Source: a virus. From it: a stretch of DNA of 36,019 nt. The translations under genes were made by a program, and so were the position numbers. Positions 5,309-36,019 of the stretch are shown one piece after another. Where the stretch lies: IMG/VR virus record IMGVR_UViG_3300037502_001445, positions 1-36,019 of that record. One strand, given 5' to 3'. Numbering within the stretch: the stretch's first letter is position 1; each line of letters begins with the position of its first letter. Under the pieces are notes generated by a model. That model did no database searches. It worked only from the letters and a program-made list of their open reading frames with translations, and was not told where the DNA came from.

Positions 5309-5356
5309 CACTGTAACGGCAGGTTGCCAATCATTTTTGCTTAGGTGAGGTTCACG

Positions 5357-5788
5357 GTGGCAAAAGACAATTCACTATCCGCAAAGCAAAGAGCTTTCGT
5401 TACTGAGTACGTAAAAGACCACAACGCAACAAAAGCGGCAGAGCGAGCAGGATATTCTAAAAAAACCGCTTATTCACAAGGCCAGCGTTTGTTGAAGAAA
5501 GCTGAGATAAAATCAGCTGTAGAGTCATTCGAGAAAGAACGAGGCGAAAAAGCTGGCTTAACTGTTGATTGGTTCGTATCTAACTTAATGAGCCTTCATG
5601 AAAAGTCAGTCAGAACAATCATCGACCAACAAGGCAACACCCGCATGGATTCGCCCGCCACCGCAGCAAAGTGCTTGGAAATGAGCATGAAGTATTTGAA
5701 CATAGCAGGCGGCGCTGATAGCGATGAAGGTGATTCGCCTATAACCATTCAGATTGTAAACCCTAATGCCTCAGATAAAGCCGAGTAA
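5357..5788 (+). CDS. terS: Terminase small subunit
   Basis: 143 aa. The N-terminal helix-turn-helix SAKQRAFVTEYVKDHNATKAAERAGYSKKTAYSQG is the classic Terminase_2 DNA-binding domain, followed by a helical oligomerisation region and an acidic C-terminus. It recognises the packaging site and delivers DNA to the large subunit. GTG 5357 is chosen because GAGG lies 6 bases upstream and the protein then starts MAKDN; GTG 5345 would place the ribosome site inside the gene. It overlaps the large-subunit gene by 23 bases. Confidence 0.92.
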   Translation: MAKDNSLSAKQRAFVTEYVKDHNATKAAERAGYSKKTAYSQGQRLLKKAEIKSAVESFEKERGEKAGLTVDWFVSNLMSLHEKSVRTIIDQQGNTRMDSPATAAKCLEMSMKYLNIAGGADSDEGDSPITIQIVNPNASDKAE

Positions 5789-7028
5789 GCCACAGTTTGA
5801 TTACATAACCTGTAATGACCCCTATCCGGCCATGGTATCGGGGTTCGGTGCCGGAAAGACTCAGGCGGCTGTTAATCGCTCTATTATTGGCAAGCTACAA
5901 TACCCTACTCTAAACCGCGGCTTCTATGAGCCGACTTATGACTTGGTAAGAATGATCGCATTTCCACGATTTGAGGAAGTGCTAACCGAGCTAGGTATTC
6001 CGTACAAACTGTATAAGTCACCGCTCAACTACATCGAAATTGAAAATCACGGAAAAATCTTCTTTCGCTCGATGGACACGCCGAGCCGAATCATTGGCTA
6101 TGAACACGCGGACGCAGACGTTGACGAGTTAGACACGCTCAAAAAAGATGATGCGGCCGAGGTATGGCGGCGCATCCTATCACGTAACCGCCAGAAGAAG
6201 CCGGACGGGAAGCCTAACACCATAGGCGTTACCACAACACCAGAAGGCTTTCGGTTCGTTTACGAGAACTGGAAGAAAGAGCCTAAAGACGGATACCGGA
6301 TTATTCAGGCTTCAACCAACAGCAACCCGCACTTACCAGAGGGCTACATTCAGTCATTGATGGACATATACCCTAGCAACTTGTTAGAGGCTTACATTGA
6401 TGGACGGTTCGTTAACCTGACCAGCGGCAGTGTATACCCGACATTTAGCCGAGAAGAACTTGACTGCAACGAATCCTATCAACCAAAAGACGCCAGCAAG
6501 GGGTTAATGGCCGACGTGATTCACATAGGCATGGACTTCAACGTAAACAAAATGGCCGCTTGCGTATTCGTACAGCGTGGCGACAATTGGGCGCAGGTTG
6601 ACGAAGTGAAAGACGGGCGCGACACACCGCAGATGATCGAGATTATTCAGCAACGCTATCCCGATTCACGTGTAATCATATACCCTGACGCAAGCGGTAA
6701 GAACGCATCAAGCAAAGGAGCAAGCCTGTCCGATATATCGCTATTACGAAAAGCAGGCTTTGAGATACGCGCCAAAGATAGCAACCCGCCGATTAAAGAC
6801 CGCGTGGCGGCAGTTAACAAGGCACTGGAAGATGGCAAGATTAAAATCAACATTCGCAAATGCCCGACTACAGCAGACCACCTAGAGCAACAGGCATACG
6901 ACGCAAACGGGCAACCCGACAAGAAATCAGGGCTTGACCATATGCCTGATGCTTTTGGGTACTTTGTGTACTACAATATGCCTATAATCAAACCAATGGC
7001 TGCACCACAAGTAAGGCGCTTTAGATGA
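5766..7028 (+). CDS. terL: Terminase large subunit
   Basis: 420 aa, packaging ATPase-nuclease. Walker A GFGAGKT at residues 26-32, Walker B-like ADVDELD at 117-123, ATPase coupling motif VTTTPEG at about 156. The C-terminal RNase H-like nuclease has acidic residues in HIGMDFNVNK (D257), YPDASG (D308) and DHMPDAFGYF (D395). Length is normal for the Terminase_6/XtmB type. With circularly permuted genome ends this would fit headful packaging, though that cannot be proven from sequence alone. Confidence 0.95.
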   Translation: MPQIKPSKPQFDYITCNDPYPAMVSGFGAGKTQAAVNRSIIGKLQYPTLNRGFYEPTYDLVRMIAFPRFEEVLTELGIPYKLYKSPLNYIEIENHGKIFFRSMDTPSRIIGYEHADADVDELDTLKKDDAAEVWRRILSRNRQKKPDGKPNTIGVTTTPEGFRFVYENWKKEPKDGYRIIQASTNSNPHLPEGYIQSLMDIYPSNLLEAYIDGRFVNLTSGSVYPTFSREELDCNESYQPKDASKGLMADVIHIGMDFNVNKMAACVFVQRGDNWAQVDEVKDGRDTPQMIEIIQQRYPDSRVIIYPDASGKNASSKGASLSDISLLRKAGFEIRAKDSNPPIKDRVAAVNKALEDGKIKINIRKCPTTADHLEQQAYDANGQPDKKSGLDHMPDAFGYFVYYNMPIIKPMAAPQVRRFR

Positions 7029-14245: not shown

Positions 14246-15406
14246 ATGGCTGCACGTACATTATCCGGCAACGACATTTCCGTTTGGAAGGTCGAGCAAA
14301 CCGTAAAGGGTGAGATACCCGCCAATCCTGAATTTAACTATTTCCGACGTACTGAGGGTGCCGCGCGCAAGCAGGTTGCTTATGTGCAATCGTCAGAGGT
14401 CAAGACAAACCGGCAGGCGCGTCAAAACCTGAAAGATACCGTCACATTCCCATCCGAGTTGTCGTTTGAAATGACCAAGCAGACCATCGGAGAAATGCAG
14501 GCGGCATTCCAAAGCACTGAGTCGGTACGAACCGCAACAAGTGCAACCATCGCCTTTGATGCTACAGGCGCGAGCTCAACTGATGGCTCTTTCGCAGGCT
14601 TCGATGCAGGCGACTACATCTTTGTTAGTGGTTCAACAAGTAACGACCGAGTTTTCAAGATTACCGCCAAGACAGACAGCGACAATGTTGATTTATCGCC
14701 AGCGCCAACAACTGAAGCGGCAGGGGCATCAATCACGATTGACTCGAACCGTACAGTTACAGGTAAAACGCCGCGTTATTTTGCAATTCAAACGCGCACG
14801 GTTGACCAATCAGCCGTTGGTAACGTCGATTACCGCACGTTCTACGATTGCCAAATCAATACCGGCTCGTTCGAGATTGCGGAAAGCGGCATTGTCACAG
14901 GGGCGGCTAACTACGTTGGTGAGCAATTAAACCCCGGCTCAGCTTCAATCAGCGGCCAAACTGACGCGGCAATTGACCAATCGGCGGTCATTTCTGCTCA
15001 GTCCGGTATCGAGCAGTTTTGGGTGGACGGAACGCCGGACGATTGCATCATCAAATCTATGGGTTTTGAGCTGACCAACAACTTGCAGGAAGATAACGCG
15101 GCGGCTTGTGAAGGCGCAGAGTACGCCAACGGTGACTTGGGGCTTACAGGTTCACTTGTTGCGCGTAACCGCATTGATGACGCGAACGTATGGCGTGACC
15201 GATACGAGAACGGCACTAACTTAGAGTTGGCTGTAACCGTTGACCACGGAAACGACGAAAAAACCGTTTTTGTTGTCGAGTCGTGCAAAATTACTGAGCA
15301 CACCCGCGCCAACGGCTCAAACGCTGTGGCAAACTCAGAAATGACCTACTCAGCGGAAGAATCCAGTCGAGGTTATACGGCGGCTATCTACCGTAATTGG
15401 GTGTAA
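14246..15406 (+). CDS. Major tail tube protein
   Basis: 386 aa. MAARTLSGNDISVWKVEQTVKGEIP start, then the YVQSSEVKTNRQARQNLKDTVTFPSELSFEMTKQTIGEMQAAFQ block typical of siphophage tube proteins, a middle beta-rich insert (about residues 95-175, possibly an Ig-like or surface domain), and a C-terminal tube domain ending RGYTAAIYRNWV. It polymerises as hexameric rings around the tape measure. An intrinsic terminator follows. Confidence 0.85.
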   Translation: MAARTLSGNDISVWKVEQTVKGEIPANPEFNYFRRTEGAARKQVAYVQSSEVKTNRQARQNLKDTVTFPSELSFEMTKQTIGEMQAAFQSTESVRTATSATIAFDATGASSTDGSFAGFDAGDYIFVSGSTSNDRVFKITAKTDSDNVDLSPAPTTEAAGASITIDSNRTVTGKTPRYFAIQTRTVDQSAVGNVDYRTFYDCQINTGSFEIAESGIVTGAANYVGEQLNPGSASISGQTDAAIDQSAVISAQSGIEQFWVDGTPDDCIIKSMGFELTNNLQEDNAAACEGAEYANGDLGLTGSLVARNRIDDANVWRDRYENGTNLELAVTVDHGNDEKTVFVVESCKITEHTRANGSNAVANSEMTYSAEESSRGYTAAIYRNWV

Positions 15407-15419
15407 TTACAGGAATAAG

Positions 15420-15443
15420 AAAGGGGCTTAATGCCCCTTTTTT
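15420..15443. terminator. Convergent terminator after the tail tube gene
   Basis: AAAGGGGC, loop TTAAT, GCCCCTTT then TTT on the plus strand. On the minus strand the U-tract is weaker. It separates rightward head/tail transcription from the five-gene leftward island whose last stop codon lies in the loop. Confidence 0.85.
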
Positions 15444-15634
15444 CTATTTAAAATCTTGAACAATGCAACTATTGAGCCATTGCCCACAATGGTGAAAAAG
15501 TAAGCATACAAAAAGAACAGGATAAAAGACAATATCTCACCGCTTTCTATCGCGTTAATGTAAAAAATTAATGCCGGAACCACTGCAAAGCAAATGACAA
15601 AAAGAATAAAAACATCAGTAATAAGCCTTTTCAT
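15428..15634 (-). CDS. Small membrane protein with two hydrophobic helices, 68 aa
   Basis: MKRLITDVFILFVICFAVVPALIFYIN gives one hydrophobic segment (residues 6-28) and SFILFFLYAYFFTIVGNGSIVALF a second (about 36-60), ending in a basic tail LNRKKGH. Last gene of a leftward five-gene island inside the tail cluster. Small two-helix inner-membrane proteins in such islands can serve superinfection exclusion, but nothing here proves that. Confidence 0.7.
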   Translation of the reverse strand: MKRLITDVFILFVICFAVVPALIFYINAIESGEILSFILFFLYAYFFTIVGNGSIVALFKILNRKKGH

Positions 15635-15873
15635 TTCAATTCCTTCAGTTTAACGCCTGTCAATTCGTACATGACGTATGCGAACGTGTGAACATCAACG
15701 CGCCTTGAACATAGCCTCCTTAATTGCTTGTAAGCTACCCCTATTCGCGGCTCAATTTCCAGCATTTGAAATAAATCCTCAGCCGTAACAAAACCCTGCC
15801 GGTAAACCTGCTTTACAACTACAGGGCGTCGGTCTAGCTTGTCGAATATAAAATCAATCAGTTTGCGTATCAT
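15631..15873 (-). CDS. Hypothetical protein of leftward island, 80 aa
   Basis: MIRKLIDFIFDKLDRRPVVVKQ start, overlapping the next gene by ATGA. Basic; residues 27-75 (TAEDLFQMLEIEPRIGVAYKQLRRLCSRRVD) have a helical, possibly DNA-binding look. Not recognised. Confidence 0.65.
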   Translation of the reverse strand: MIRKLIDFIFDKLDRRPVVVKQVYRQGFVTAEDLFQMLEIEPRIGVAYKQLRRLCSRRVDVHTFAYVMYELTGVKLKELK

Positions 15874-16138
15874 TATTAACCCTCACTATGTAGCTGTTTT
15901 TCTGCATAGCCCTGTTGTGTCTGCGAAACCTGCGCTTGTCTAATTTAGGCCTGCTAGTCATAAATAGCTTTGCCGGGGTGCTTTTAATCGCCTCAAGTTT
16001 GGACTTAAAAGTTGCAATTTGGAATGGGTTTATGGGTAGTCCTAGCATTTGGTTTTTCAGCTTGTAAACCTCAAATTTTACTATCTCGTTAGCTAAAACC
16101 ATAGCCTTCATATATTGCCGCTGGTCAATCTTGTTCAT
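15854..16138 (-). CDS. Hypothetical basic protein of leftward island, 94 aa
   Basis: MNKIDQRQYMKAMVLANEIVKFEVYKLKNQML opens with a long amphipathic helix; the C-terminal half is strongly basic (SRPKLDKRRFRRHNRAMQKN). Overlaps both neighbours (14 and 20 bases). A nucleic-acid-binding or assembly role would fit the charge, but no family is recognised. Confidence 0.65.
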   Translation of the reverse strand: MNKIDQRQYMKAMVLANEIVKFEVYKLKNQMLGLPINPFQIATFKSKLEAIKSTPAKLFMTSRPKLDKRRFRRHNRAMQKNSYIVRVNNDTQTD

Positions 16139-16301
16139 CTATCGCCTCCAGTTTCCGCTTAACTCCCAAGCACACAATTTCAAATAGTGCTGCTTTGTTT
16201 TTATGCCAGTTAATTAGCGTCTGAATGCTAACCCCGCTAAGTCGGCTTAACTCAGCGAGGCTATCAAGCCCCGCTTTTTTTGCTTGTTGTGATGGGGTCA
16301 T
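16125..16301 (-). CDS. Small helix-turn-helix protein, 58 aa
   Basis: Starts MTPSQQAKKAGLDSLAELS at 16301 with AAGGAG 8 bases before. Residues 9-37 (AGLDSLAELSRLSGVSIQTLINWHKNK) are a clear XRE-type helix-turn-helix, a type widespread as tiny putative regulators in phages. It may control the divergent promoters upstream of the island. Its start overlaps the stop of the preceding leftward gene by 4 bases. Confidence 0.75.
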   Translation of the reverse strand: MTPSQQAKKAGLDSLAELSRLSGVSIQTLINWHKNKAALFEIVCLGVKRKLEAIDEQD

Positions 16302-16453
16302 GTTAGCTCCTTTATATCGTATGAGTTGAAGATGTAAATGCCAGCGCTCATATCTTGGCTTTCTAGCTCTAAAAGGTAAGCTAAAGCCTTTTCCTTGCTG
16401 TCAAAGCTACCGCTCAATACGCGGCCGCTTTTTGCCGATGTCACATAATACAT
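16298..16453 (-). CDS. Hypothetical protein, first gene of leftward island, 51 aa
   Basis: MYYVTSAKSGRVLSGSFDSKEKALAYLLELES start at 16453 with a strong AAAGGAG. Beta-beta-alpha arrangement (YYVTS.SGRVLSGSF, then a helix), common in tiny phage proteins. The stop overlaps the HTH gene by ATGA. Function unknown. Confidence 0.7.
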   Translation of the reverse strand: MYYVTSAKSGRVLSGSFDSKEKALAYLLELESQDMSAGIYIFNSYDIKELT

Positions 16454-16558
16454 AAAAACTCCTTTATTTTATTGCTTCCAAGTATGCTTTTTTGCTAATG
16501 CGTAGGCAGAATCTAATCCAAAATGACTGGGCGTCCTTTTCGCATTAACTTGATAAAA

Positions 16559-16586
16559 AGTATATCAAACTATTGTAGTATTACAA
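16559..16586 (-). promoter_or_regulatory. Promoter of the leftward island
   Basis: On the minus strand TTGTAA (16586-16581), 16-base spacer, TATACT (16564-16559). The surrounding 16540-16625 region is strongly A+T rich. Confidence 0.55.
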
Positions 16587-16612
16587 GTATTTTAGTAATT
16601 ATTTTAGATTAT

Positions 16613-16640
16613 TTGTAACCTGCCATATGTGTAGTAAACT
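16613..16640 (+). promoter_or_regulatory. Promoter for tail chaperone and downstream tail genes
   Basis: TTGTAA (16613-16618), 16-base spacer, TAAACT (16635-16640); the ribosome site AAAGGAG follows before ATG 16665. The same -35 hexamer and spacing appear in the opposing promoter of the leftward island. Confidence 0.5.
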
Positions 16641-16664
16641 CAACGCAAACAAAGGAGATTAAAA

Positions 16665-17177
16665 ATGACATCACCGCTAGAGCTATTCAGAGAAGACAAA
16701 GACAAGCAAGAAAACGGCTCCCCCTGCTACGTGGGCGACATGACGTTTTACATCAAGCGCAACGGTACGCCTGAATCGAAAAAGCAGATGGCTGATATAC
16801 GCGAAACGCTGTACGGCCTGCATCCGAGCCCCAAAGAAATTGACGAATGGCGCATATGGGCGCATTGGCTGGCAGAGTACGGCGTGACCCATTGGGAAAT
16901 CATGCAAGAAACCGACGAGGGCGAGAAACCGTTAGAGTTTAGTCGGAGGGCGGCGCGTGACGTGTTTCTGAATGACGAGTACCGTTTGAGCCTTGTGCCG
17001 CACCTCGCTAACTTCTGTCTGAGCTACGAGAACTACCTATTTGACCAAGCGCAAGAGGACGCCGAAGCCGTAAAAAAGCCGTCAACTTCTACAGCGACTT
17101 CACCTCCGCAGACGAAGCGCGACGAGAGCTCAAAATCCTCTACCCCGAAAAAACGGAAGCCGAAATCGAAGAAATGA
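16665..17177 (+). CDS. Tail assembly chaperone G
   Basis: 170 aa. Acidic N-terminal domain with Trp-rich core (KEIDEWRIWAHWLAEYGVTHWEIMQ) and a low-complexity Ser/Thr/Pro/Lys tail, placed right before the tape measure gene: the lambda gpG position. At codons 136-138 (GTA AAA AAG) it carries a frameshift site; ribosomes that slip enter the T frame. Such proteins coat the tape measure during tail assembly and are absent from the finished virion. Confidence 0.82.
   Translation: MTSPLELFREDKDKQENGSPCYVGDMTFYIKRNGTPESKKQMADIRETLYGLHPSPKEIDEWRIWAHWLAEYGVTHWEIMQETDEGEKPLEFSRRAARDVFLNDEYRLSLVPHLANFCLSYENYLFDQAQEDAEAVKKPSTSTATSPPQTKRDESSKSSTPKKRKPKSKK
17072..17078 (+). other. Programmed -1 frameshift site A AAA AAG (G to GT)
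   Basis: The heptamer A AAA AAG lies in the zero frame of the G gene (codons GTA AAA AAG). A -1 slip continues as GCC GTC AAC TTC from 17078 without a stop through the ORF ending at 17416, giving a GT fusion of about 250 residues. This heptamer is the same as in E. coli dnaX. Frame geometry is read directly; frameshifting efficiency is not known. Confidence 0.88.
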
Positions 17178-17416
17178 TACCGAAGCTGAACGGCAGGCAA
17201 CAGGAGCTTCTTTACTTTTTCAACCGGCTTTCACGGCAACGCGATTACATGGGCGAAACTAAGCCAGTGCCGAAAGCGCTAAAGCTGCATGAAATTCGCG
17301 CAGAATTGCCCTATACTACTTACAATCCTGAGTGGTTCGTTTGGTGCATTGAGCAGATAGACATGCAATGGCTAAATGATAAATATGACGAGATAAGGCG
17401 GCGTAATGGCAACTGA
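17174..17416 (+). CDS. Tail assembly chaperone T domain (expressed as GT fusion)
   Basis: An ATG at 17174 overlaps the G stop, but the frame is open upstream to at least 17078, where the -1 frameshift from G joins it; the added stretch NFYSDFTSADEARRELKILYP is protein-like. The domain (LNGRQQELLYFFNRLSRQRDYMGE..YNPEWFVWCIEQIDMQWLNDKYDEIRRR) is the T part that contacts tail tube and tape measure. Its end overlaps the tape measure start by 11 bases. Independent translation from ATG 17174 is possible but less expected. Confidence 0.8.
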   Translation: MIPKLNGRQQELLYFFNRLSRQRDYMGETKPVPKALKLHEIRAELPYTTYNPEWFVWCIEQIDMQWLNDKYDEIRRRNGN

Positions 17417-19532
17417 AAAACGAATTAAGATAGTCGTTGACTCTAAGAACGCAAAACGTGATGTTGACGACTTAGATAATTCAATGCGCGGCCTCGGTGG
17501 AACGGCTGACCGCACAACTAGCGGACTCAGTACATTATCCCGCGTTGCCACCGCTGTTATCTCTGCCGTAGCTGTTCAGCGTGTCGTCGCATATGCCGAC
17601 GCATTCAGCGAATTACAAACACAGCTTAAACTTGTTACCGATTCATCAGCAGAGCTTAACCGAACCACACAAACGCTTCTCAAGCTGTCAAATGAAACCG
17701 CTAGTAGCCTAGATGGCACGGTCGGTATTTACACTAAGCTGACACGCGCTACGGAGCAATTAGAAGCATCAGAAGAAGAAATTCTAGCCGTTACCCGTGC
17801 CATCAACCAATCATTCGTCATCTCAGGCGCATCAGCAGAAGAGGCGGCCAACGCTATCCGTCAGTTAAATCAGGGTCTAGCATCAGGTGTATTGCGCGGC
17901 GAAGAATTTAACGCAATCAACGAAAACGCAGACCGACTAGCTCGCGCGCTTGCTGACTCTCTAGGTGTTACTCGTGGCGAACTGAGAGCATTGGCCGCAG
18001 AGGGTGTGTTAACTACTGAAACTGTATTTAACGCGCTGAAAGGACAGGCTGATGCTATCAATGACGAATACGGACAGGTGGATTTAACGGTCGGGCGAGC
18101 ATTCAGTAATCTTAATGACTCGTTGACAGTGGCGGTTGGTCGATTTGACCAAGCTACGGGGGCGTCAGGAGCTTTCGCGCAAGGCATAGATAGAATATCT
18201 GACGCGATCAATGACGCAGACTTTAAGTCTTTTGGAGAAGATGTTGCTGAGCAGTGGGATTTGGCTTATGAAGGTTTGATACGCTACCTGCCACTTGTTG
18301 CGCTCGCTGAGAAAGTGAACGAGGCTTATGCAAATTCGGCAGATGATAATAACGACACCGTAAACGAGGGTTTGCGTGAAACAATACGCCTTTACGGGCA
18401 GCTCGCACAAGTTACCGGCATGGCATCACCAAGGCCAGTACGAGTTGACCAAGACGGCGCAAGTCAATCCACCGGAGTTTTGCGCTCCGATGCTGGTGCG
18501 GCAAATGAGTTTGCAACAGAAGGAACAACAGAAGTTCCCGGTATCAACCCGAAAGGAGGCGCTACGGGCGAGGCGGCTTTAATCCTGTTACGCAACCAAG
18601 CGGCGGAGGACGCAGCCAGAGCGCGTGAAGAACTAGAGCGGCAGAACCAAGCGATACTGTCAGAGCAGTTCGTGCAATCCGAGCAAATGCGCACAGAGCA
18701 ACTACAAAACGAATTAGCGCGGCGATTAGAAGTGCAACGCGCCTATGAAGAAACGAGCTTTGGAGATGACGCAACATTCTATGAGCGCAGACTTGCTGAA
18801 AACCAGTTCCGCAAAGAAGAGCAGCTGGCAATGCTTGAGGAAGAGCGTCAAAACGAGATTGCTCAACAACAACTGCGACGCGAAAGAATTATTGAAAATG
18901 AGAGGTTAACATCAGAAGCGCGGCAGGAGGCGCTGGCCGAAATCCGCGAACAAGAGCTAACGCAACAGCAGATATTTGAAGATAAAAAGACAAGGATTGA
19001 GCAGGAAGCGGCGCAAACAAGAACTGAGATTAAGAAAGCTGAGGAACAGGCCAAGCTACAAGCAACGCTGGGCGCGGCTAGTGATATTATCGGCGCCATC
19101 GGCGCTATCGGCAAAAACTCAGTAAAAGTTCAAAAGGCAGTTGCAATAGCTCAGGCTGGCATATCTATCGCGTCCGGCATCGCAAGAGCCCAAGAGCTTG
19201 GGTTTCCTGCTAACATCGCAGAGGCGGCGCGTGTAGCGGCTGTTGGCGCAAAAGCATTTTCAGCTATCAGGTCGGCAGAAGTTGGCGGCAGTCCAGCCAA
19301 CCCGCAGTCAGTCGCAAGCGGCTCAGGTGGTGCCGCATCAGTTAGCGCATCAACGCCAATCAGGACGCAAGAACCACCAAGTCAATCATCAGTGTTTGAG
19401 ATTAAAGGCTTCTCCGAGCTTGCTCAGCGCTTATCAGAGTTTGACCCTGGCGAGCCATTACCGGCAGAGATTGCACAGCGTTTAGCTATCAGCATTGAAA
19501 GTATCAGAACATTAGAGGGCGGTAGCGCATGA
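17406..19532 (+). CDS. Tape measure protein
   Basis: 708 aa. The N-terminal tape-measure domain (about residues 50-250) has LSNETASSLDGTVGIYTKLTRA, VISGASAEEAANAIRQLNQGLASGVLRGEEFNAINENADRL-type sequence as in lambda-like tape measures. Then follow a hydrophobic segment, a long coiled coil (about 395-560, many EERQNE/AEIREQE repeats) and a Gly/Ala-rich end. By the usual relation of about 0.15 nm per residue, the tail would be near 105 nm. It determines tail length and helps DNA ejection. Confidence 0.92.
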   Translation: MATEKRIKIVVDSKNAKRDVDDLDNSMRGLGGTADRTTSGLSTLSRVATAVISAVAVQRVVAYADAFSELQTQLKLVTDSSAELNRTTQTLLKLSNETASSLDGTVGIYTKLTRATEQLEASEEEILAVTRAINQSFVISGASAEEAANAIRQLNQGLASGVLRGEEFNAINENADRLARALADSLGVTRGELRALAAEGVLTTETVFNALKGQADAINDEYGQVDLTVGRAFSNLNDSLTVAVGRFDQATGASGAFAQGIDRISDAINDADFKSFGEDVAEQWDLAYEGLIRYLPLVALAEKVNEAYANSADDNNDTVNEGLRETIRLYGQLAQVTGMASPRPVRVDQDGASQSTGVLRSDAGAANEFATEGTTEVPGINPKGGATGEAALILLRNQAAEDAARAREELERQNQAILSEQFVQSEQMRTEQLQNELARRLEVQRAYEETSFGDDATFYERRLAENQFRKEEQLAMLEEERQNEIAQQQLRRERIIENERLTSEARQEALAEIREQELTQQQIFEDKKTRIEQEAAQTRTEIKKAEEQAKLQATLGAASDIIGAIGAIGKNSVKVQKAVAIAQAGISIASGIARAQELGFPANIAEAARVAAVGAKAFSAIRSAEVGGSPANPQSVASGSGGAASVSASTPIRTQEPPSQSSVFEIKGFSELAQRLSEFDPGEPLPAEIAQRLAISIESIRTLEGGSA

Positions 19533-30952: not shown

Positions 30953-31044
30953 TGAGCGGCATATCAGTTGTACTCGAAGTGTTCGCGCTGTTTTTAATAC
31001 TAGTAATAGCGATACAGATAGCGTCAAAAGATAAGGGGCATTAA
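30952..31044 (+). CDS. Tiny membrane protein, 30 aa (GTG start)
   Basis: GTG 30952 overlaps the MazG-like stop; AAGGAC lies ahead. SVVLEVFALFLILVIAIQIA is one hydrophobic helix with the short tail SKDKGH. Resembles the broken gene at 25344 in size and in a 14-bp identical stretch. Its stop lies inside the terminator hairpin. Confidence 0.5.
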   Translation: MSGISVVLEVFALFLILVIAIQIASKDKGH

Positions 31045-31054
31045 GCCCCTTTTA
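31033..31054. terminator. Convergent terminator between 30952 and 31052 genes
   Basis: AAGGGGC, loop ATTAA, GCCCCTT then TTAT. It lies between two converging transcription units; stop codons of both sit in or next to it. Confidence 0.78.
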
Positions 31055-31240
31055 TATTTCCACTTCTTCTAAAACTAAATCACTAGATAGGTCGCTGGCA
31101 TCGCGCCACATTTCAGGCTGATTCCTCGGTACAAACTCATCACCGTCAAAATACCCAAGATAGCAATACTCGCCATCTTTAATTGTGATAACCGCGCCCT
31201 TTGCTAGTGTGCTTAACACTTTATAAGTTCCGTTATTCAT
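31052..31240 (-). CDS. Hypothetical early protein, 62 aa
   Basis: MNNGTYKVLSTLAKGAVITIKDGEYCYLGYFDGDEFVPRN is a small beta-rich protein, SH3-like in pattern, with an acidic end. Last gene of the leftward early operon. Family not recognised. Confidence 0.65.
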   Translation of the reverse strand: MNNGTYKVLSTLAKGAVITIKDGEYCYLGYFDGDEFVPRNQPEMWRDASDLSSDLVLEEVEI

Positions 31241-35705: not shown

Positions 35706-36019
35706 ATGAAAGACAAAAAGTACGAATTAGATAAAACCAAAACTAAAAAAGCGCCTAATGGAGCTACGCTCTATGCAGTTGTGGCACTTAAATCATTCGG
35801 CACTATTGAAGCTGGCGATGTCGGTGGATACATTGAATCGGAAAAAAATCTAAGTCAGTCCGGCGATGCTTGGGTGTCCGGCAATGCTCGGGTGTTCGGC
35901 AATGCTCGGGTGTTAGGCAATGCTGAGGTGTTCGGCAATGCTCTGGTGTTAGGCAATGCTCGGGTGTTCGGCAATGCTCGGGTGTTAGGCAATGCTCGGG
36001 TGTTCGGCAATGCTCGGGT
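35706..36019 (+). CDS. Hexapeptide-repeat protein, 5' part (continues at position 1)
   Basis: ATG 35706 follows CGGAGAG. Residues 1-52 form a small N-terminal domain (YELDKTKTKKAPNGATLYAVVALKSFGTIEAGDVGGYIES-like, KNLSQSGDAWV), typical of YdcK-type phage proteins; then hexapeptide repeats begin and run off the end with two bases of the next codon. Together with 1-560 the protein would have at least 285 residues and over 25 repeats. Frames at the two ends do not match without extra bases. Confidence 0.85.
   Translation, partial: MKDKKYELDKTKTKKAPNGATLYAVVALKSFGTIEAGDVGGYIESEKNLSQSGDAWVSGNARVFGNARVLGNAEVFGNALVLGNARVFGNARVLGNARVFGNAR
35862..36019 (+). repeat. 18-bp tandem repeat array, right copy
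   Basis: About nine 18-bp units identical in type to those at 1-323 (GGCAATGCTCGGGTGTTC/A). The window ends inside a unit. Confidence 0.97.

Follow-up and report, generated by a model that had tools for sequence, protein, structure and literature searches.

A probable exchangeable accessory operon between the tail tube and chaperone genes of a marine siphophage

What are five small leftward genes doing between the tail tube and tail chaperone genes of a phage whose late cluster runs rightward? The window, i.e., the whole stretch of DNA analysed here, is a virus record of 36,019 bases from one marine tailed phage. Both of its ends (1-400 and 35786-36019) fall inside one 18-bp tandem repeat that codes for GNARVL/GNAWVS-type hexapeptides; the window is therefore probably a nearly complete genome, circular or permuted, and the repeat at both contig ends suggests that a circular genome was broken within the repeat gene. 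The rightward late cluster comprises terminase (5345-7028), head morphogenesis, portal, scaffold, capsid, connectors, tail terminator, tail tube, chaperone and tape measure genes. The original prediction, made from the sequence of the locus, took the interruption for a moron carrying its own transcription signals.

Architecture of the island and its control region

The features of the locus are as follows.

14246-15406, plus strand: tail tube gene, left flank of the slot (Phage_tube_2, E 3.6e-14; phrog_290, E 5.7e-32)
15414-15445, both strands: two-way intrinsic terminator of tail tube gene and island (hairpin 15420-15440), from folding
15428-15634, minus strand: island gene 5, 68 aa, two hydrophobic stretches, from hydrophobicity
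15631-15873, minus strand: island gene 4, 80 aa, basic, ORF
15854-16138, minus strand: island gene 3, 94 aa, strongly basic, predicted all-helical
16125-16301, minus strand: island gene 2, 58 aa, small HTH protein (phrog_409)
16298-16453, minus strand: island gene 1, 51 aa, ORF
16454-16664, no strand assigned: A+T-rich divergent control region, from position
16665-17177, plus strand: tail assembly chaperone gene, right flank of the slot (phrog_313, E 4.1e-10)
17406-19532, plus strand: tape measure gene, in the late cluster 3' of the chaperone

The profile matches bear out the proposed identity of both flanking genes, and the five minus-strand ORFs between them (15428-16453, 51-94 aa) are present as described. 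From gene 1 to gene 5, successive ORFs overlap by 4, 14, 20 and 4 nt, and a Shine-Dalgarno-like sequence lies 5' of all five starts (AAGGAG, AAGGAG, TGGAGG, GAGGG and GAAGGA). On the minus strand, 1026 nt of 15407-16664 fall within ATG-initiated ORFs 45 aa or longer, and the plus strand contains no such ORF; 0 of 2000 dinucleotide shuffles matched this coverage (mean 123 nt, maximum 726 nt). Island GC is about 0.39 against about 0.50 in the surroundings, whereas third-position GC barely differs (0.46 against 0.49). A search of 50,697 phage records found no relatives of genes 1, 4 and 5, as might be expected if the ORFs were spurious and the A+T-rich spacer were non-coding or decaying; the shuffle result, the ribosome-binding sequences at all five starts and the homologues of genes 2 and 3 contradict this reading and render it extremely improbable. 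A DNA-level search of the same phage collection with positions 15000-17000 returned no match, and viral contigs scanned with four queries from the window, namely its tail tube, chaperone, gene 3 and gene 4 sequences, gave nothing.

The terminator predicted to be shared with the tail tube gene is recovered by folding on both strands, at -16.6 kcal/mol (z -3.3) on the plus strand and -13.2 kcal/mol (z -2.7) on the minus strand. A near copy of its stem (92%) lies at 31033-31058, at the convergent end of a MazG operon and a leftward small gene. A promoter of the island's own is plausible. The proposed TTGTAA-N16-TATACT is present on the minus strand at 16586-16559 with an extended -10 TG; however, promoter-like matches in the region do not exceed the shuffle count (4 found, 4.9 expected), and the candidate is backed by its position. 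A candidate rightward promoter, TTGTAA-N16-TAAACT at 16613-16640, scores below the scan threshold and is likewise placed by position. The best inverted repeat of the control region (11/14 matched) is not significant, being equalled or exceeded in 63 of 200 shuffles, and no palindromic operator could be assigned to the gene 2 HTH protein within this region; the self-regulation proposed originally is thus not borne out by these sequences.

These signals are consistent with a simple transcriptional scheme. Host sigma-70 RNA polymerase would transcribe the island leftward from its own promoter, probably early in infection; the two-way terminator would separate the late rightward transcripts from the island transcript, neither running into the other; and the rightward promoter in the divergent region would restart the chaperone and tape measure genes. 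Within the chaperone gene, the -1 frame is open over 17045-17413, with a second chaperone-like ORF at 17174-17416; a frameshift may be possible at the run G AAA AAA C (17147-17154), whose phase, however, is not that of a canonical slippery sequence.

The tube/chaperone boundary in related phages

Relatives of the locus were collected with a tail-tube profile built from Pseudoalteromonas phage tubes, single-sequence scans having found nothing. The profile identified 23 IMG/VR loci, two of which are copies of phages H105/1 and BS5. The nearest relatives of the window's tail tube, the Pseudoalteromonas phage tubes, share 29-34% identity with it, and the empty sites described below therefore do not come from close kin. 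Scans with the capsid and tape measure gave many relatives, all without the window's tail tube or chaperone and thus uninformative on the slot. Bacterial and archaeal genomes yielded one match, a partial and probably misbinned contig, and so no prophage context.

Phages BS5 and HS2 and contig L040 have an empty slot: tube and chaperone are separated by 51-54 nt holding the terminator only. In H105/1, HS5, HS1 and contigs among L025-L039 it is filled, with gaps of 331-884 nt and differing genes, leftward in every case:

L025, L027 and L029: gap 331-332 nt, 61-aa membrane-type protein
H105/1: gap 391 nt, 79-aa protein
L032: gap 518 nt, 121-aa product
L031 and L039: gap 532 nt, leftward cargo
L034: gap 589 nt, YopX
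L037: gap 707 nt, membrane-type protein and NinX
L030: gap 724 nt, three genes
L035: gap 884 nt, D12 DNA methyltransferase
Window: gap 1258 nt, the five island genes

In every filled slot the GC of the cargo lies below that of the flanks (0.32-0.39 against 0.42-0.50). The sharpest comparison is between L035 and H105/1, whose DNA is 93% identical over tube and chaperone and 99% over the last 80 nt before the chaperone, against 27% over the cargo; the L035 tail tube, next to the methyltransferase gene, is 98% identical to that of H105/1. Because near-identical flanks enclose differing cargo here, and because the slot is empty or refilled elsewhere, the tube/chaperone slot is, on these alignments, a fixed site of cargo exchange. 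In the open-access literature we did not find it described as such; the annotation of the H105/1 record does include the antisense gene and the terminators.

The location between tail tube and chaperone would also suit an essential, lineage-specific tail-assembly block, for instance one exerting antisense control of tail gene dosage, in which the terminator and restart promoter could tune the tube:chaperone ratio. The terminator after the tail tube is retained even in empty slots, so dosage control would need no cargo. The empty slots of BS5 and HS2 and the unrelated genes elsewhere led us to reject this explanation, which we judge highly improbable.

The presence/absence comparison proposed with the original prediction thus shows an island that is not conserved in all relatives, and the moron reading gains from cargo being present, absent or replaced at exactly this boundary. 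As in a moron, the island is absent between the same genes in relatives, differs from them in composition and has its own terminator. Since the slot is empty or carries other cargo in relatives, we consider it likely that the island is an exchangeable multi-gene accessory operon, a moron occupying an antisense cargo slot at the tube/chaperone boundary of a marine siphophage group, and not a tail-assembly block. The empty slots further suggest that it is dispensable for lytic growth. None of the relatives compared carries the same five genes, and they lend no support to the operon moving as a unit.

A comparable arrangement occurs elsewhere in the late cluster. Vibrio phages 1.197.A (L010, 1438-2354) and 1.060.A (L011, 1237-2295) carry antisense islands between the Ad1 and head closure genes. 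Judged by gene order, this boundary is another late-cluster slot in the Vibrio phages. The cargo of the Ad1 slot in L025 (3050-3856) has a Rha-like N-terminus fused to a T5orf172/GIY-YIG-like domain.

Island proteins and their possible roles

None of the island proteins had been recognised originally, which still applies to genes 1, 4 and 5 but no longer to gene 2, now placed in a large small-HTH family, or to gene 3, for which distant relatives near helicase genes were found. The HTH is real: gene 2 belongs to the 'MTPSxxAKxAGLKSLAE' family of small HTH proteins and matches phrog_409 (E 1e-5), with a MerR-like Pfam match (E 2e-4) below the Pfam cut-off. The 50,697 phage records contain 47 relatives, mostly in Vibrio, Pseudoalteromonas and Marinomonas phages, with a best identity of 65% over 46 residues; overall identity to eight aligned family members is 38-56%. 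The family is also found on at least 80 viral contigs, and among the 71 relatives from 80 of these with a clear start, 39 share the ATGA overlap with the upstream gene that gene 2 has.

In sequence and in this overlap, gene 2 thus resembles phrog_409-like proteins such as gp43 of PspP-H6/1, whereas the setting differs. Relatives occur in many phage operons with varying neighbours; those inspected lie mostly in small-gene early/replication operons near DnaB, NinG, Erf and SSB, or in insertions among head genes, and none was located between tail tube and chaperone. Some are found inside virion clusters, beside the portal gene (L153), before a scaffold-like gene (L197) and in L209. On this last contig (39-2691), five small antisense genes, the second of which encodes a gene-2-type HTH protein, converge on a portal gene (phrog_145, E 9e-104), and two proteins encoded after the HTH protein look hydrophobic on inspection. 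As read from its gene layout, L209, an unrelated contig, is an independent repeat of the architecture of the window's island.

Gene 3 encodes a protein with 20 K/R and 7 D/E residues, whose single-sequence structure model is helical (pLDDT 83); fold comparison with this model gave nothing significant, the best viral hit having E 0.067. Its distant relatives, in Aeromonas phage KLEA5 (E 1e-4) and, weakly, in Vibrio phages (E 0.3), are encoded immediately 5' of helicase genes or separated from them by one small gene. The structure model of gene 4 was of low confidence, too poor for use, and was set aside. Gene 5, with its two predicted hydrophobic stretches, agrees with the two-helix membrane protein proposed earlier and is likely to be a small inner-membrane protein. 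It gave no significant match in Pfam, PHROGs, PADLOC or NCBIfam and no homology to known exclusion proteins; matches to TraL and DUF3169, below curated cut-offs, were discarded as hydrophobicity bias. The set would thus comprise a DNA-binding HTH protein, a basic helical protein and a small inner-membrane protein. Most likely the products are small accessory proteins directed at the host or at phage, and not parts of the virion or of tail assembly.

One functional sub-case of the moron reading is superinfection exclusion or prophage defence, in which gene 5 would block DNA entry by related phages and the HTH protein would keep the operon on in lysogens. Gene 5 has the expected form, being small, with two predicted hydrophobic stretches and encoded in the tail region, and membrane-type cargo recurs in the slot (L025, L030, L031 and L037). 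HK97 gp15, which blocks the DNA entry of related phages, is encoded by a moron between the tail chaperone and tape measure genes. Hybrids that carry a different tail tube and tape measure evade exclusion by gp15 (PMC10883804). Other slot cargo (methyltransferase, YopX, NinX) is of a different type, however, and no sequence match to an exclusion protein and no PADLOC match were obtained. No integrase-like ORF, nor an integrase-sized one of unassigned function, is evident in the window; lysogeny is therefore doubtful and lysogenic conversion uncertain. The presence of Erf and Cro/CI genes has led others to infer that phages of the H105/1 group may have an integrating life style (PMC5498523). On balance, we regard exclusion as a possible but unlikely role.

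Small overlapping genes with an HTH protein and an A+T-rich control region would also fit an addiction pair, of toxin-antitoxin or another type, in which the HTH protein would be the autoregulating antitoxin. Yet the island proteins have no significant defence or toxin-antitoxin family match in PADLOC, NCBIfam or Pfam, relatives of the HTH protein keep changing neighbours across many phage operons, and the promoter region lacks a significant palindrome, all of which makes an addiction pair quite improbable. Anti-defence, also suggested originally, is a conjecture in view of the same database results.

Known morons and a shared motif in H105/1-type phages

Phage morons were reportedly described for HK97 and HK022 by Juhala et al. 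in 2000. The window's island is like those of HK97, where gp23 is annotated as a reverse moron, in placing extra genes with small products and a terminator between conserved tail genes; it differs in being a five-gene antisense operon with a regulator-like protein at the tube/chaperone boundary, whereas the HK97 units are single genes. We know of no sequence relation between the two. The ORF 8-10 segment of SPP1, with its own transcription signals, also interrupts a conserved virion gene order (PMC6316719), but at another position, with other genes and with a replication origin. Morons in tail clusters, reverse ones included, are thus already known, and the window's island is a new multi-gene one.

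The closest parallels are the Pseudoalteromonas phages H105/1, HS1 and HS5, which share with the window the boundary, the antisense orientation, the terminator directly after the tube, A+T-rich cargo and a divergent control region before the chaperone. Their cargo is a single 79-aa gene unrelated to the window's five, and a conserved palindrome-like element in their control region is absent from the window. A stretch of about 25-30 nt 5' of the chaperone gene (AACATTTAGCTATAAGCATATAACT) hardly varies across the H105/1 group, against 72-75% identity of tube DNA between subgroups. The 13-bp core motif TTTAGCTATAWGC has three exact copies each in H105/1 and HS5, and HS5 has one further site with one mismatch; shuffles give an expectation of 0.13 sites in each genome when up to one mismatch is allowed. 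Each copy lies in its own divergent control region of an antisense island, before the portal region, Ad1 and the chaperone:

9452 (minus), 17183 (plus) and 20359 (plus) in H105/1 (L012): TTTAGCTATAWGC, divergent control regions

The motif is a possible shared operator of the late-cluster islands in H105/1-type phages. The element is absent from the window, whose own best inverted repeat is not significant, so the hint of common control concerns the relatives and not the window. We tentatively hypothesize, at somewhat less than even confidence, that the late cluster of this marine phage group contains fixed antisense cargo sockets under common control by a phage regulator that would switch all of them together; the window would then be a variant with one socket, governed by a control sequence and a regulator of its own.

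The analysis identifies a reusable insertion site for small genes in a marine phage group. Because cargo turns over at such slots while the neighbouring tail genes and the control region remain in place, they are productive places to search for anti-defence, exclusion and host-takeover genes, and the motif common to three sockets in the relatives offers a directly testable regulatory hypothesis.
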